A stretch of DNA of 58,092 nt from contig JALFOM010000117.1 in assembly GCA_022782265.1 (NCBI GenBank), forward strand, positions 1-58,092, in the 5' to 3' direction. The DNA comes from Clostridiales bacterium (GTDB lineage: Bacteria > Bacillota > Clostridia > Oscillospirales > Oscillospiraceae). Shown one piece after another: positions 33,256-39,583 of this stretch (positions are counted from its first letter, which is position 1; every line of letters starts with the position of its first letter). Both the position numbers and the translations under genes were made by a program. The notes under the pieces were generated by a model, which saw only the letters and a program-made list of their open reading frames with translations, was not told where the DNA came from and made no database searches.

Positions 33256-35664
33256 ATGGAATTGAGAATTGCCCTTGCGGGCAACCCGAACTGCGGCAAA
33301 ACCACCCTGTTCAATGCCCTGACCGGCTCCAACCAGTTTGTGGGCAACTGGCCCGGCGTCACTGTGGAGAAAAAGGAAGGCAAGCTGAAAAAGCACAGTG
33401 ATGTGACCATCACCGACCTGCCCGGCATTTACTCCCTGTCCCCCTACACGCTGGAAGAGGTGGTGGCCCGCAATTACCTGATCGGCGAGCGCCCCGACGC
33501 CATTTTGAACATCATCGACGGCACCAACCTGGAGCGCAACCTTTATCTGACCACCCAGCTGACCGAGCTGGGCATTCCCGTTGTGGCCGCCATCAACATG
33601 ATGGATATCGTGCGCAGGAACGGCGACAGGATCGACACCCAGGAGCTCTCCCGGGCGCTGGGCTGCAAGGTGGTGGAGATCTCCGCCCTGAAGGGCGACG
33701 GCATCATGGACGCCGCTGAGGCCGCCATCGACGCGGCCAAAAACGGGAAAACCGTCCCCATGCACACCTTCTCCGGCCCGGTGGAACACACCATCGCCCA
33801 TATCGAGGAGGCGGCCGTACATGATCTGCCGGAGGAGCAGCAGCGCTGGTACGCCATCAAGATCTTTGAGCGGGACGACAAGGTCCTGGAGCAGCTGAAC
33901 CTGAAGGAAGAGCTGCTCAAGCACATCGAGGCGGATATCGCCGCCGCCGAGGAGGAGCTGGACGACGACGCGGAGTCCATCATCACGGGCGAGCGCTATA
34001 TTTACATCGGCGAGCTCATCAAGCGCTGCTACAAGAAAAAATCCACCGGAAAGCTCTCCAACTCCGACAAGATCGACAAGATCGTCACCAACCGCTGGCT
34101 GGGCCTGCCCATCTTCGCGGTGATCATGTTCCTGGTGTACTACATATCCATGGTGACCATCGGCACGGCGGCCACCGACTGGGCCAATGACGGCCTGTTT
34201 GGCGACGGCTGGCACCTGCTCGGCATCGGCTCCGCCGCTTATAGTGAAGCGGCCGAGGAATACGGCGATGCGGCGCTGATCGTAGACGCCTACGACGCCT
34301 ATGTGGAAGAAAACGGCTCCGAACCCACCGGCGATTTTACCGTGGAGATCGAGGATGAGGAGACCCTGGCGATCAGCGAGGAGACAGCCTCCCTGGAGGA
34401 TTATCAGGCGGCTCTGGCAACAGTAGAGCGCTACGGCGAGGAACCTGACCCGGCGGACTACGGCGTCTGGGTGCCCGGTATTCCTGTCCTGATCGGAAAT
34501 CTTCTGGAGAAAGCCAACGGGGCCGAATGGCTCAACGGCCTGATCCTTGACGGCATCGTGGCCGGCGTAGGCGCGGTTCTGGGCTTTGTGCCTCAGATGC
34601 TGGTGCTGTTCCTGCTCCTGGCCTTCCTGGAGGCCTGCGGCTACATGGCCCGTATCGCCTTCGTTCTGGACCGGGTGTTCCGCAAGTTCGGTCTCAGCGG
34701 CAAGAGCTTTATCCCCATGCTCATCGGCACCGGCTGCGGCGTGCCCGGCGTTATGGCCTCCCGTACCATTGAAAATGAGCGCGACCGCCGCATGACCATT
34801 ATGACCACCACCTTTATTCCCTGCGGCGCAAAGGTGCCCTTCATCGCCATGATCGCCGGCGCCATCTTCGGCGGCAGCGCCTGGGTGGCCACCTCCGCTT
34901 ACTTCATCGGCATGGCAGCCATCATCCTCTCCGGTATCATGCTGAAAAAGACCCGGATGTTTTCCGGCGAGCCTGCTCCTTTTGTCATGGAGCTGCCCGC
35001 TTACCACCTGCCCACCGTGGGCAACGTCCTGCGCAGCATGTGGGAGCGGGGCTGGAGCTTTATCAAGAAGGCCGGCACCATCATCCTGCTCTCCACCATT
35101 CTGGTCTGGTTCACCACCTATTTCGGCTGGGTGGACGGCGCCTTCCGTATGCTCAGTGAGGAGGAGATCGACTGCTCCATCCTGGCCTCCATCGGCGGCG
35201 TGATCGCCTGGATCTTCAAGCCTCTGGGCTGGGGCAACTGGCAGGCCGCCGTGGCCTCCATCACCGGCCTTGTGGCCAAGGAGAACATCGTCGGCACCAT
35301 GGGCATCCTCTATGCCAGCGGCGACGGTACCGTCTATCAGAATCTGGCCGCCGCGTTCACCGGCGTCACCGCTTATTCCTTCCTGGTGTTTAACCTGCTG
35401 TGCGCCCCCTGCTTTGCGGCAATCGGCGCCATCAAGCGGGAGATGAACAACGCCAAGTGGACCTGGTTTGCCATCGGCTATCAGTGCGGCTTTGCCTACG
35501 TCATTGCCCTGATGATCAACCAGTTCGGCAATGCTTTTACCGGCAAGCTGAACATTCCGGGCCTGATCGTGGCTCTGGTGCTGCTGGCGGGCATGATCTA
35601 CATGCTCTTCAAGCCCTATAAGGAAGCCACCAAACGTTCATCCAGGACCGCTGTCAAGGTCTGA
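33256..35664 (+). CDS. feoB: Ferrous iron transport protein B
   Basis: 802 residues. The N-terminal G domain has G1 GNPNCGKTT (9-17), the switch region GNWPGVTVEKKEG and G3 DLPGIY, followed by the GDI helical domain. The polytopic membrane domain has two Gate motifs (IPMLIGTGCGVPGVMASR and the later region with APCFAAIGAIKREM). It imports Fe(II) under anaerobic conditions. After the first membrane helix there is an acidic insertion of roughly 90-100 residues (about 315-415) absent from the minimal family. AAGGAGAGGA precedes the ATG. Confidence 0.96.
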   Translation: MELRIALAGNPNCGKTTLFNALTGSNQFVGNWPGVTVEKKEGKLKKHSDVTITDLPGIYSLSPYTLEEVVARNYLIGERPDAILNIIDGTNLERNLYLTTQLTELGIPVVAAINMMDIVRRNGDRIDTQELSRALGCKVVEISALKGDGIMDAAEAAIDAAKNGKTVPMHTFSGPVEHTIAHIEEAAVHDLPEEQQRWYAIKIFERDDKVLEQLNLKEELLKHIEADIAAAEEELDDDAESIITGERYIYIGELIKRCYKKKSTGKLSNSDKIDKIVTNRWLGLPIFAVIMFLVYYISMVTIGTAATDWANDGLFGDGWHLLGIGSAAYSEAAEEYGDAALIVDAYDAYVEENGSEPTGDFTVEIEDEETLAISEETASLEDYQAALATVERYGEEPDPADYGVWVPGIPVLIGNLLEKANGAEWLNGLILDGIVAGVGAVLGFVPQMLVLFLLLAFLEACGYMARIAFVLDRVFRKFGLSGKSFIPMLIGTGCGVPGVMASRTIENERDRRMTIMTTTFIPCGAKVPFIAMIAGAIFGGSAWVATSAYFIGMAAIILSGIMLKKTRMFSGEPAPFVMELPAYHLPTVGNVLRSMWERGWSFIKKAGTIILLSTILVWFTTYFGWVDGAFRMLSEEEIDCSILASIGGVIAWIFKPLGWGNWQAAVASITGLVAKENIVGTMGILYASGDGTVYQNLAAAFTGVTAYSFLVFNLLCAPCFAAIGAIKREMNNAKWTWFAIGYQCGFAYVIALMINQFGNAFTGKLNIPGLIVALVLLAGMIYMLFKPYKEATKRSSRTAVKV

Positions 35665-35702
35665 TAGAACCATCATCTTTTCAACCAAAGGAGTGACTTG
35701 CC

Positions 35703-35876
35703 ATGCTGCAATGGATCGGCGCAAATCTTGGGACCATTCTCATCTGCCTTGTCTTAATAGCCATAATTACCTTCATCGTACATTACCTCTTTCAGCAGAA
35801 AAAGCAGAGCAAGTCCTCCTGCGGCTGCAACTGTGCCCACTGCGCCATGCACGGTTCATGCCATAAGGGTAAATGA
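35703..35876 (+). CDS. FeoB-associated Cys-rich membrane protein
   Basis: 57 residues: one membrane helix (LGTILICLVLIAIITFIVHYL) and a short Cys-rich tail, CGCNCAHCAMHGSCHKGK, with five cysteines and two histidines. Small proteins of this design directly follow feoB in many Firmicutes and are thought to aid FeoB or to handle metal at the membrane. AAAGGAG lies upstream. The gene is very short but convincing from position and pattern. Confidence 0.85.
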   Translation: MLQWIGANLGTILICLVLIAIITFIVHYLFQQKKQSKSSCGCNCAHCAMHGSCHKGK

Positions 35877-35888
35877 GGAAACGAAATC

Positions 35889-36146
35889 GTGATAAAAATC
35901 ATTCTGGATGTTGAGGGTATGGCCTGCGGGATGTGCGAGGCCCATGTAAACGACGCGGTGCGGAGGGCCTTTCCGGTGAAAAAGGTCAGTTCCTCCCACA
36001 CCAAGGGCAAAACGGAGATCATTTCTGAGGCGCCTCTGGACGAAGAAAAGCTGAAAGCCGCCGTCTCCGCCACGGGCTATACCGTCACCGCGGTGAAAAC
36101 CGAGCCTTATGAGAAAAAGAGCTTTACCCTGTTCAAAAGAGTATAG
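35889..36146 (+). CDS. Heavy-metal-associated (HMA) domain protein
   Basis: 85 residues, starting GTG at 35889 after GAGGAAACG. An HMA fold with CxxC in LDVEGMACGMCEAHVNDAVR and the usual alternating pattern. HMA proteins normally carry Cu(I) or other soft metals; here one ends a ferrous-iron operon, 12 bases after the Cys-rich peptide. The C-terminus (about 72-85) is a short basic extension. A strong terminator follows. Confidence 0.85.
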   Translation: MIKIILDVEGMACGMCEAHVNDAVRRAFPVKKVSSSHTKGKTEIISEAPLDEEKLKAAVSATGYTVTAVKTEPYEKKSFTLFKRV

Positions 36147-36249: not shown

Positions 36250-38850
36250 ATGGACGGCGCGGCGGAAAGCCGGGGGAAAAAGCAGATCTGCCTGGGCCTG
36301 ATCGCCCATGTGGACGCGGGGAAGACCACCCTGTCCGAGGCCATGCTGTACCTCTCGGGCAAGATCAAAAAGCTGGGCCGGGTGGACCACCGGGACAGCT
36401 ACCTGGACACCCACCAGCTGGAGCGGGAGCGGGGGATCACCATTTTCTCCAAACAGGCCGTTATGCCCCTGATGAACAGCAGGGTGTATCTGCTGGACAC
36501 CCCGGGCCACGCGGATTTTTCCGCCGAGGCGGAGCGTACAGTGCAGATTCTGGACTACGCGGTGCTGGTCATCAGCGGGACCGACGGCGTGCAGGCCCAC
36601 ACGGAGACCCTGTGGCGGCTGCTGGAGCGCTACCATGTGCCCTGCTTTCTTTTTGTGACAAAAATGGACCTGCCCGGCGCGGACGAGGAGAGCCTGATGG
36701 AGGGGCTTCGCCGGGAGCTGAGTGAGGGCTGTGTGGACTTCACCAACCGGGGCGGGGACTTCTTTGAAAAGCTGGCCCTCTGCGACGAGGCGGCCATGGA
36801 GAAATATCTGGACGCAGGCCTCAGTGAGGAGGATATCCCGGCCCTGATCCGTAGACGTTCTCTGTTTCCCTGCTTTTTCGGCTCCGGGCTGAAAACGGAG
36901 GGCGTGGAGGAGCTTCTTAGCGCCATTGACCGCTTTTGCCTCCCCGTGGAGGACAGCGGCGAATTTTCCGCCCGGGTATTTAAAATTGCCCGGGATGCCC
37001 AGGGCAGCCGCATGACCTGGCTGAAAATTGGCAGCGGAGAATTGAAAGTCAGAACACCCCTGCGCTATACCGCCCAGAGCGGCGAGGAGCTGGAGGAAAA
37101 AATCAACCAGATCCGCCTGTATTCCGGCAGCAAATACGAGACCGCCGACGCTGTGCAGGCGGGGCAGGTCTGCGCCGTGCTGGGGCTCAGCGCCACCTGG
37201 CCGGGCCAGGGTCTGGGCGCGGCGGACAGGGCGGCGGAGCCGGTTTTGGAGCCGGTGCTCAGCTACCGGATGATTCTCCCCGCCGGCACCGACCCGGCGG
37301 CCCTGCTGCCCAAATTGATGCAGCTTCAGGAGGAGGACCCACAGCTGCACATCTCCTGGAATGAGCGGACGCGGGATATCTCCGTGCAGCTCATGGGCCG
37401 GGTGCAGACGGAGATTTTGAAAAGGCTCATTCAGGAGCGCTTCGACCTGGATGTGAGCTTTGACGCGGGGCGCATCATGTACCGGGAGACCATCGGGAAC
37501 ACCGTGGAGGGCGTGGGCCATTTTGAACCCCTGCGCCATTACGCCGAGGTGCATCTGCTGCTGGAGCCCCTGCCCCGGGGCAGCGGGATCGTGCTGGAGA
37601 GCAGCTGCAGCGAGGACCAGCTGGACCGGAACTGGCAGCGGCTGATCCTGACCCATCTGGCGGAAAAGAAGCACCTGGGGGTGCTCACCGGCTCCCCCCT
37701 GACCGATGTAAAGATCACTCTGGCCGCGGGAAAAGCCCACCTGAAGCACACCGAGGGGGGCGACTTCCGGCAGGCCACCTACCGGGCGGTGCGCCAGGGG
37801 CTGATGCAGGCCCAGAGCGTTCTGCTGGAGCCATATTACGCCTTTTTGCTGACGGTGCCGCCGGAGCAGATCGGCAGGGCCATCAACGATCTGCGGGCCA
37901 TGGGCGGGGAGTTTTCCTCCCCGGAGGATTCAAACGGCATGAGCCGGATCGAGGGCAGCGCCCCGGTCTGCGGCCTTGGCGGCTATATGAACGAGCTTGC
38001 GGCCTATTCCCACGGCCGGGGCCGGCTTTTCCTCCGCCCGGACGGGTACAGGCCCTGCAAAAACAGCGACAGCGTCATCAAAGAATTGGCCTACGATGCC
38101 GAGAGCGACACGGAAAACCCGGCAGACTCGGTGTTCTGCGCCCACGGCGCGGGCTTCAACGTGAAGTGGGATAAGGTGCCCGACTACATGCACCTGGAAA
38201 GCTGCCTGAAAAAGGAGACTTCCCCGGAGCCTGCCGCCCCGGTTTTCCGCCGCAGTCTGGATATTGACGAGCGGGAGCTGGAGGCCATTATGGAGCGGGA
38301 GTTCGGCCCTATCCGCCGGCGGGAATACCGCGCGGCGGAGAGAAACGAGGCCCCGGCCCCGACTCCCGTGGAGAACAAAAAGGAATATATCATCGTAGAC
38401 GGATACAATGTGATCTTTGCCTGGAACGCGCTCAAGGCCCTTGCAAAGGAGCATCTGGACCTGGCCCGGGGGCGGCTGATGGACATGCTCTCCAACTACT
38501 GCGGCTTTACCCGCGCGGAGCTGGTGCTGGTGTTCGACGGCTACCGCAGTCCGGGAAACCCCGGCGCCAAAACCCAGTACCACAATATCCATGTGGCCTA
38601 TACCAGGGACGGGGAGACCGCCGACGCCTATATCGAGCGCCTGGCCAACGACATCGGCAAAAACTATTCTGTGCGGGTCATCACCAGCGACAACCTGATC
38701 CGCCTGTCCGCCCTGCGCTCCGGCGTGCTGCGCACCTCCTCAAAGGAGTTTGAGGGCGAGGTGGACTGGGTGCTGGGCCAGATCGAAGAGGTACTGCGCC
38801 GGAGCAATCCGGACCCGCACAAGACGAGGCTGAAGGATGGAAAACAATGA
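36250..38850 (+). CDS. TetM/EF-G-like translation GTPase fused to a C-terminal NYN (Rae1/YacP-like) nuclease domain
   Basis: 866 residues. The first about 650 form a ribosomal-protection-type GTPase: G1 AHVDAGKTT (19-27), G2 in ERERGITIF, G3 DTPGH (83-87), G4 TKMD (137-140), then EF-G-like domains II-V. After a spacer (about 670-710) comes an NYN/PIN-like nuclease domain starting IIVDGYNVIFAW, with acidic residues Asp717, Asp763, Asp792, Glu796 and Asp814. This is the domain of B. subtilis Rae1 (YacP), which cleaves mRNA in the ribosomal A site. Fusion to a factor that enters the same site suggests a GTPase-delivered ribosome nuclease (inference). A tetracycline-resistance role is unlikely given divergence and context. 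It overlaps ylmH by 14 bases. Confidence 0.85.
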   Translation: MDGAAESRGKKQICLGLIAHVDAGKTTLSEAMLYLSGKIKKLGRVDHRDSYLDTHQLERERGITIFSKQAVMPLMNSRVYLLDTPGHADFSAEAERTVQILDYAVLVISGTDGVQAHTETLWRLLERYHVPCFLFVTKMDLPGADEESLMEGLRRELSEGCVDFTNRGGDFFEKLALCDEAAMEKYLDAGLSEEDIPALIRRRSLFPCFFGSGLKTEGVEELLSAIDRFCLPVEDSGEFSARVFKIARDAQGSRMTWLKIGSGELKVRTPLRYTAQSGEELEEKINQIRLYSGSKYETADAVQAGQVCAVLGLSATWPGQGLGAADRAAEPVLEPVLSYRMILPAGTDPAALLPKLMQLQEEDPQLHISWNERTRDISVQLMGRVQTEILKRLIQERFDLDVSFDAGRIMYRETIGNTVEGVGHFEPLRHYAEVHLLLEPLPRGSGIVLESSCSEDQLDRNWQRLILTHLAEKKHLGVLTGSPLTDVKITLAAGKAHLKHTEGGDFRQATYRAVRQGLMQAQSVLLEPYYAFLLTVPPEQIGRAINDLRAMGGEFSSPEDSNGMSRIEGSAPVCGLGGYMNELAAYSHGRGRLFLRPDGYRPCKNSDSVIKELAYDAESDTENPADSVFCAHGAGFNVKWDKVPDYMHLESCLKKETSPEPAAPVFRRSLDIDERELEAIMEREFGPIRRREYRAAERNEAPAPTPVENKKEYIIVDGYNVIFAWNALKALAKEHLDLARGRLMDMLSNYCGFTRAELVLVFDGYRSPGNPGAKTQYHNIHVAYTRDGETADAYIERLANDIGKNYSVRVITSDNLIRLSALRSGVLRTSSKEFEGEVDWVLGQIEEVLRRSNPDPHKTRLKDGKQ

Positions 38851-39583
38851 ACTTCTGAAACGGGCGGAGGACCTCTGCGCCCGCTGTGAGCGGACGGCCA
38901 GCCTGACCTCCACCGGCTTTCTCACTCCGGCGGAGCGCTACGCCCTGGAAAACTGGGCAAAGCGCCGGGCCGACTGCAACCTTGTGTTCAGCGGCGGCAG
39001 GCCGGAGTGCGAGCGCACTGTGGCCTTCTTCCTGCCCTATTATATGGAGAAGGAGGACTTCTCCCCGGCGGAGTATATCCGGGCCATCGAGCTGAAAGCC
39101 TTTTTCGGCGTCCCGGGCCACCGGGACTATATGGGCGCCCTGCTGGGCATGGGCATAGGCCGGGAGTGGCTGGGGGATATCTGGGTCATGGAGGATAAGG
39201 CAACGATCTTTTGCCTGCCCAGCGTCCTGCGGCACCTGCTCAGTATTGAGAAGGTGGGGCGCTACGGCGTGAAGGCCCGGGAACTGGCCCTGGACGAGAT
39301 ACCCGCCCCGGAGCGGAAGGTGAAGCAAGTGAGCTTTTCCGTGATGAGTATGCGGCTGGACGCGGTGGCGGCGGGGATGTTCAATCTGTCCCGGACCGAG
39401 GCGGCAAAGCAGATCAGCGCCGGGAATCTGAGCCTGAATTACAGCGTCACGGACAAGACCGACACCCCGGTCCACGAGGGGGACGTCCTCTCCCTGAGGG
39501 GCGCGGGCAAGGGCACCGTCACCGGCACCGGCGGCACCTCCCGCAAGGGAAGGCTTTTTGTGTATGGGGAGATATTGAAATAA
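38837..39583 (+). CDS. ylmH: YlmH-type RNA-binding protein with S4 domain
   Basis: 248 residues. An N-terminal YlmH domain (FLTPAERYALENWAKRR, ELKAFFGVPGHRDYMGALLG) and a C-terminal S4 domain (about 175-235: MSMRLDAVAAGMFNLSRTEA, then AKQISAGNLSLNYSV). YlmH proteins bind the 50S-peptidyl-tRNA and act in ribosome-associated quality control in Bacillus, as relatives of RqcP; elsewhere they sit in the division cluster. Here the gene is instead translationally overlapped with the GTPase-nuclease fusion. AAGGATGG before the ATG is inside the upstream gene. Confidence 0.88.
   Translation: MENNELLKRAEDLCARCERTASLTSTGFLTPAERYALENWAKRRADCNLVFSGGRPECERTVAFFLPYYMEKEDFSPAEYIRAIELKAFFGVPGHRDYMGALLGMGIGREWLGDIWVMEDKATIFCLPSVLRHLLSIEKVGRYGVKARELALDEIPAPERKVKQVSFSVMSMRLDAVAAGMFNLSRTEAAKQISAGNLSLNYSVTDKTDTPVHEGDVLSLRGAGKGTVTGTGGTSRKGRLFVYGEILK

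Follow-up and report, generated by a model that had tools for sequence, protein, structure and literature searches.

The 58,092-nucleotide stretch of a Clostridiales genome analyzed here, hereafter the window (contig JALFOM010000117.1 of assembly GCA_022782265.1, Oscillospiraceae), encodes a translational GTPase of the EF-G/TetM type fused to a C-terminal NYN domain resembling Rae1 (YacP) of Bacillus subtilis (Table 1). Pfam search with the fusion protein detected GTP_EFTU (residues 13-229), EFG_III (334-404), EFG_IV (407-522) and EFG_C (524-606), a marginal domain II (EF-G_D2, 238-315, 26.2 bits against a cut-off of 27), and NYN_YacP (714-858, E 8.5e-40; 136.9 bits for PF05991 against a gathering score of 24.6). 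The NYN part alone matches the crystal chains of B. subtilis YacP (5mq8 and 5mq9) with E ~1e-17. The open reading frame and these matches bear out the architecture given in a preliminary description of this region, which was made from the sequence alone and proposed the fusion and the adjacent ylmH gene as a candidate ribosome-rescue module.

Table 1. Features of the fusion locus (nucleotide positions in the window; residue numbers of the encoded protein)
Feature	Position	Strand	Description
Fusion gene	36250..38850	+	866 amino acids, ATG start; EF-G/TetM-type translational GTPase with C-terminal Rae1-type NYN domain
GTPase module	36286..38067	+	Residues 13-606, Pfam domains I-V
GTPase motifs			G1 AHVDAGKTT 19-27, G2 GIT 62-64, G3 DTPGH 83-87, G4 KxD 138-140
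Domain IV tip	37744..37770	+	KHTEGGDFR, residues 499-507; near-identical in fused and NYN-less relatives, differs from TetM/TetO
C-terminal extension	38068..38193	+	Residues 607-648, with SVFCAHGAGFNVKW..YMH; common to NYN-less relatives
Tether	38194..38385	+	Residues 649-712
NYN_YacP (Rae1-type) nuclease domain	38389..38823	+	Residues 714-858; Asp717, Asp763, Asp792, Glu796, Asp814
ylmH	38837..39583	+	S4-domain protein; PF17774 and S4 matches; Arg173 and Arg186 in S4 motif RLD..NLSR

The AlphaFold model of the fusion, built with 75 sequences, has a mean predicted local distance difference test score (pLDDT) of 88.5 and a predicted template modeling score of 0.71. Confidence is high across the GTPase module and over most of the NYN domain, in which residues 815-818 fall below a pLDDT of 50; the tether contains a single predicted helix (674-685). 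In structure alignments, the TetM chain reaches model residue 642 and the listed EF-G chains stop at ~600-619; the matches listed by Foldseek and VIA-align concern the GTPase part and carry no information on the NYN fold. NYN-less relatives of the GTPase terminate at or shortly past the start of the tether. A motif in the tether helix, EL..IF, is found under a strict pattern in 84 of 120 fused and none of 17 NYN-less proteins and, given this incomplete coverage, is not claimed to be invariant.

The active sites of both modules are conserved. Asp717, Asp763, Asp792 and Asp814, the acidic residues named in the preliminary description, lie where it placed them, and Glu796 is a fifth; all five are invariant in 120 of 120 fusions, including 41 from across the class Clostridia (these and the following residue counts over 120 fusions exclude the incomplete protein L154). 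The equivalent columns are retained in 24 of 24 free-standing NYN domains. Thus, the NYN domain is not degenerate; degeneracy in most homologs was an outcome that the preliminary description had named as grounds for abandoning its proposal. In the GTPase, Lys25, Thr27, Asp83, Gly86, Lys138 and Asp140 are unchanged in all fusions covering the respective position, with exceptions at two other motif residues, His87 (Tyr in L099) and Thr26 (Met in L126); residue 137 is Thr in the window and Asn in 40 of 41 class-wide fusions. The window protein has the G1-G4 motifs and domains I-V that characterize translational GTPases of the EF2 group.

The fusion is widespread. NYN_YacP was detected in 21 of 25 genomes of the window's genus and, elsewhere in the order, in 3 of 15, and all 24 matches are located in frames of at least 619 amino acids that also match the GTPase. 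Among the genus members lacking a match (G002, G005, G012 and G015), two nearly complete ones, G012 (99%) and G015 (93%), also lack the family GTPase at E 1e-75. In a sample of 293 genomes of the class, drawn at a completeness of at least 90%, the domain is present in 192. The 150 best-scoring matches, which come from 149 of these 192 genomes, include 85 in frames of at least 600 amino acids (the definition of 'fused' here; 40 of the 85 were inspected individually and confirmed as the fusion), 60 free domains of 168-216 amino acids, and 5 frames of intermediate length (295-451 amino acids), two of which, in G210 and G194, begin at a contig end, the others being in G223, G273 and G083. Long NYN_YacP frames also occur outside the class within the phylum (e.g., in G540, G333, G423 and G581). 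Among named genomes, at least 590 of at least 599 pattern matches encode a relative of the query; the best 80, kept as named loci, all match the query through the NYN domain. The named hosts include Ruminococcus flavefaciens, Intestinimonas butyriciproducens, Anaerovorax odorimutans and Fusibacter sp., and the nearest relatives among the 80 are from Ruminococcaceae/Oscillospiraceae assemblies (L096-L098, 65-69% identity). A single scan of viral contigs with the window protein, which is sensitive to close relatives only, confirmed no relative.

The fusion and free Rae1 are distributed in an either-or manner. Exactly one NYN_YacP gene, fused or free, is present in 188 of the 192 genomes of the class that have the domain, and for this reason the fusion appears to replace free Rae1. 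Two copies are found in four genomes only (G158, G212, G246 and G322), of which G322 has one fused and one free copy; in the window's own genome (2.28 Mb in 157 contigs, 82% complete), the fused copy is the sole one found. Four families (f36, f37, f41 and f61) mix fused-form and free-form genomes, and both forms occur within the same genus in f36 (G056 and G086 vs G244) and in f41 (G061 and G291 vs G090). Each of the 41 fused genomes tested encodes exactly one family GTPase, and none was detected at E 1e-75 in the seven free-Rae1 genomes of f36, f37 and f41 that were tested. Such a pattern with few doubles is the trace expected from redundancy followed by reciprocal loss, and this either-or inheritance is the strongest argument that the fusion performs the job of Rae1.

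In the tree of the GTPase part, 66 fused proteins (the window protein, all 40 class fusions and 25 randomly drawn named ones) form one clade with a Shimodaira-Hasegawa-like approximate likelihood ratio support of 99, the 17 NYN-less relatives are its sister group with a support of 80, and four Tet-like paralogs serve as the outgroup. The monophyly of the fused proteins suggests a single ancient fusion event; the tree stems from a quick search with no bootstrap, leaves 34 of 84 inner branches open and carries a long-branch warning for the outgroup protein L196. In the NYN tree (128 columns), the split between fused and free domains takes two changes rather than one, with one free domain on the fused side; Phe13 and a high score against the window protein suggest that this domain is the one encoded at L043. 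This locus (L043:1483-2055, genome G247) is the single case of a free-standing NYN domain that combines the fused-type Phe13 with a retained C-terminal arm, and the GTPase of G247 is of the NYN-less type and located on a different contig; the L043 domain is possibly a progenitor of the fused ones or a product of fission.

The arm itself distinguishes most of the fused domains from the free ones. All 24 free domains have a C-terminal arm with an invariant Arg (Arg165 in L041), and the same column in the fused domains holds Arg in 11 of 120 and a gap in 78 of 120. All 60 free domains, compared with 36 of the 85 fused ones, have a Pfam match extending to at least profile position 160, so that part of the fused group retains the arm in an altered form; in the window protein, the match stops at position 146 of 166, and the arm with its Arg165 is lacking. 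A passage in PMC6613710 describes R166P of B. subtilis Rae1 as a loss-of-function allele; this residue is next to the arm Arg, in a register obtained by counting residues along the PDB chain of YacP and L041. The arm may thus dock free Rae1 and would have become dispensable once the GTPase assumed docking, in which case the loss of Arg165 from most fused domains is what one would expect.

The overall domain structure of the fusion is that of TetM, down to an alignable C-terminal extension, and the fusion could also be a tetracycline ribosomal protection protein with an added RNase domain providing nuclease-assisted resistance, as suggested in 2015 by Atkinson, who assigned ten members from clostridia to the Tet subfamily (PMC4342817). 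Against the NCBIfam protection-protein model NF012153 (tet_protect), the window fusion scores 399 bits, below the cut-off of 775, and two further fused and three NYN-less proteins score 393-439 bits. The cut-off alone is not decisive, because among the Tet-like paralogs L196 (from G252) passes with 892 bits and L192 (606) and L193 (557) fail. The domain IV tip offers a second comparison: His500, Thr501, Gly503, Gly504, Asp505, Phe506 and Arg507 occur without exception in the 120 fused and 17 NYN-less proteins, and variation is confined to residues 499 and 502. Lys499 of the window falls in the column of TetM Pro509, which we take to be a mark of tetracycline protection (register obtained through L192 and the L192-TetM alignment). 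Lys occupies this column in 119 of 120 fused proteins (Glu in L137) and in 17 of 17 NYN-less ones; among the Tet-like paralogs, it is Pro in L196, and Met or Val in L192, L193 and L195. His497 of the window, which aligns with the tip His of EF-G, is retained in all 17 NYN-less proteins and in 118 of the 120 fused ones. Resistance also sits poorly with a single-copy gene present across many families and, on a weak test, with the lack of detected shared neighbors. Judging from these comparisons, the fusion does not seem to be a typical tetracycline-resistance protein, and we regard nuclease-assisted resistance as improbable.

The NYN-less sister GTPases (L176-L191 and L194; ~620-725 amino acids) share the domain IV tip and the C-terminal extension with the fusion. 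They were found in 16 of 76 tested genomes lacking the fusion, with two copies in G144, and apparently represent an uncharacterized translation factor in their own right. Their distribution does not support a functional link to free Rae1: they are present in 12 of 46 genomes that encode free Rae1, as against 4 of 30 that have no NYN domain at all.

Considering the intact domains and conserved active sites, the single fused clade, the either-or relationship with free Rae1, the loss of the arm in most members and a domain IV tip unlike that of TetM, we favor, with moderate confidence, the interpretation that the fusion is a chromosomal housekeeping-type translation factor that carries the Rae1 nuclease activity and is delivered to the ribosome in a GTP-driven manner. 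Under this proposal, the GTPase would bind the factor site of a ribosome paused with an empty A site, the C-terminal extension would position the tethered NYN domain at the A-site codon, which would be cut, and GTP hydrolysis would subsequently free the factor, the order of these steps being equally conjectural. The fusion would thereby perform the ribosome-dependent mRNA cleavage otherwise carried out by free Rae1, and not act in tetracycline resistance. More tentatively, it could be envisaged as a translation factor of a new kind, in which a GTPase brings along its own A-site endonuclease and mRNA decay at paused ribosomes is driven by GTP in much of the Clostridia; it would have a single origin, would have displaced free Rae1 on repeated occasions and would mostly have lost the docking arm as the GTPase took over recruitment, with the NYN-less sister that shares its tip being an uncharacterized factor as well.

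An alternative is that the fusion is a ribosome-associated nuclease involved in rRNA or tRNA maturation on assembling or recycling subunits. NYN domains were first proposed to function in the maturation of these RNAs (work cited in a passage of PMC4342817), and GTPases of the same fold act on mitochondrial large subunits (7nsh and 7l20). The closest characterized NYN relative, Rae1, cleaves mRNA in the A site, however, and absence of the gene from 12 of the 15 order relatives outside the genus would be unusual for an rRNA maturation factor; maturation therefore seems an unlikely role.

Several observations weigh against the proposed A-site nuclease. The domain is missing from 4 of 25 genomes of the genus along with the 12 order genomes, several of them incomplete, which implies a dispensable function. 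The either-or pattern could in part reflect single copies as a rule of the family, and the second NYN copy of G158, G212 and G246 is outside the matches listed. The tether is mostly disordered in the model at ~649-712, with pLDDT below 50 at 659-673 and 689-707, so that delivery of the NYN domain to the A-site codon stays a proposal. The docking function of the arm is conjectural, and the 36 fused domains that still match the profile there do not fit its loss. Position 13, beside the NYN signature, is Asn in 22 of 24 free domains, and Phe or Tyr has taken its place in 113 of the 120 fused ones (L104, with Phe in DGYN, being excluded from the comparisons of the arm and of this position), and Glu107/Gln108 are replaced mostly by Ile (18) and Arg (17) in the 23 nearer loci (20 of the genus and 3 of the order); with these changes, the choice of substrate may differ from that of Rae1. 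Presence of the NYN-less GTPase in genomes without any NYN domain indicates that the GTPase has some function apart from the nuclease, and neither the family cut-off nor the Pro509 column separates the fusion from all Tet-like paralogs.

The gene downstream of the fusion, ylmH, overlaps its 3' end by 14 bases, as the preliminary description had noted in inferring a single pathway, mRNA cleavage by the fusion followed by the action of YlmH on the 50S-peptidyl-tRNA. In the window's genus, this order is kept in 16 of 19 testable loci, the window included (exceptions are L007, L008 and L019; L024 and L025 are cut by contig ends). Measured to the first ATG of ylmH, the overlap amounts to 14 bases at 13 of these 16 loci and to 11, 20 and 23 bases at the other three. 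The window gene is the genome's only YlmH_RBD match, and its Arg173 and Arg186 are spaced like R182 and R195 of B. subtilis YlmH, given as essential in a passage of PMC11317155. The pairing does not extend to the class: it was found in 0 of 40 loci, though ylmH is encoded elsewhere in 38 of these genomes, the closest copy on the same contig being ~14.6 kb from the fusion (G196). Among the 80 best named loci, it occurs in 7 (L096-L099, L104, L111 and L129), a count that includes contigs ending soon after the gene and some records in or near the window's genus; the four placed in the GTPase tree (L096, L099, L104 and L111) all belong to the window's clade of five, L097 and L098 share 65-67% identity with the window protein, and L129 is outside the tree. 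Thus, the pair is real and probably co-translated in the window's lineage, and a coupled pathway may operate there; the pair is not a defining trait of the system, YlmH is probably not a required partner of the fusion, and a general two-step rescue module has a low probability. What remains of the module postulated in the preliminary description is its ribosome-directed, Rae1-like part, which is the best reading given the intact NYN and GTPase motifs and the replacement of Rae1; the conserved linkage to ylmH did not hold. Because a pairing that is not conserved was among the outcomes named by that description as refuting it, its two-gene pathway does not stand as a general one.

Clustering of the open reading frames at 120 loci yielded only scattered groups of shared neighbors, the largest, an ABC (ATP-binding cassette)-type ATPase by eye, being found at 18 loci in varying positions; this test is weak because the crude choice of reading frames performs poorly in GC-rich genomes and missed the known ylmH pairs. 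Directly upstream of the fusion, at 33256-36146, the window contains feoB followed by a gene for a small heavy-metal-associated domain protein, with no link to translation seen. At eight free Rae1 loci (L026, L029, L031, L033, L036, L038, L039 and L047), a reading frame that starts ~1 kb away matches the GTPase query weakly (45-54 bits) and is probably EF-Tu.

If the proposed function is correct, many gut and rumen Clostridia cut mRNA in paused ribosomes by means of a GTP-powered factor, where Bacillus uses a small free nuclease. This would explain a group of GTPases currently filed under tetracycline resistance, whose job may have been misread as such, and would caution against counting them in resistance surveys. 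The fusion would also be a natural construct for studying how an A-site nuclease selects ribosomes, and the replacement pattern predicts that it complements a rae1 deletion in B. subtilis.

No characterized member turned up in the papers searched, in agreement with the preliminary description, and among Creative Commons-licensed PubMed Central papers, a scope outside which the main Rae1 papers fall, no paper other than that of Atkinson was recognized as treating the fusion. The Rae1 paper, published in 2017, is later than the Atkinson study. The relevant part of the latter (PMC4342817) reports Tet proteins with a YacP-like NYN domain in ten Clostridiales species, so that the architecture itself has been on record since 2015, with the guess that it is a tetracycline-resistance variant. 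These proteins share the domain architecture and the bacterial group with the fusion and very probably belong to the same family; what was read as resistance looks here like a single ancient and widespread lineage that takes the place of free Rae1 and does not pass the protection-protein tests applied.

With Rae1/YacP of B. subtilis, the fusion has in common the nuclease core, the acidic active-site residues and the usual single copy per genome; it differs in the added full GTPase, in the arm Arg that is mostly lost from the fused group and in the change of Asn13 to Phe or Tyr. Unlike B. subtilis rae1, which is co-transcribed with rlmB/yacO according to a passage of PMC6613710, the window fusion does not adjoin these genes. 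The five-domain GTPase and the C-terminal extension are likewise found in TetM and TetO, and the alignment with the TetM chain covers the GTPase module in full; the fusion departs from these proteins in its tip sequence, the Lys at the Pro509 column, the score below the family cut-off and the extra nuclease. Finally, domains I-V, the GTPase motifs and the aligned tip His are shared with EF-G, from which the fusion, at ~25% identity, is set apart by the sequence of the tip, the C-terminal extension and the nuclease.

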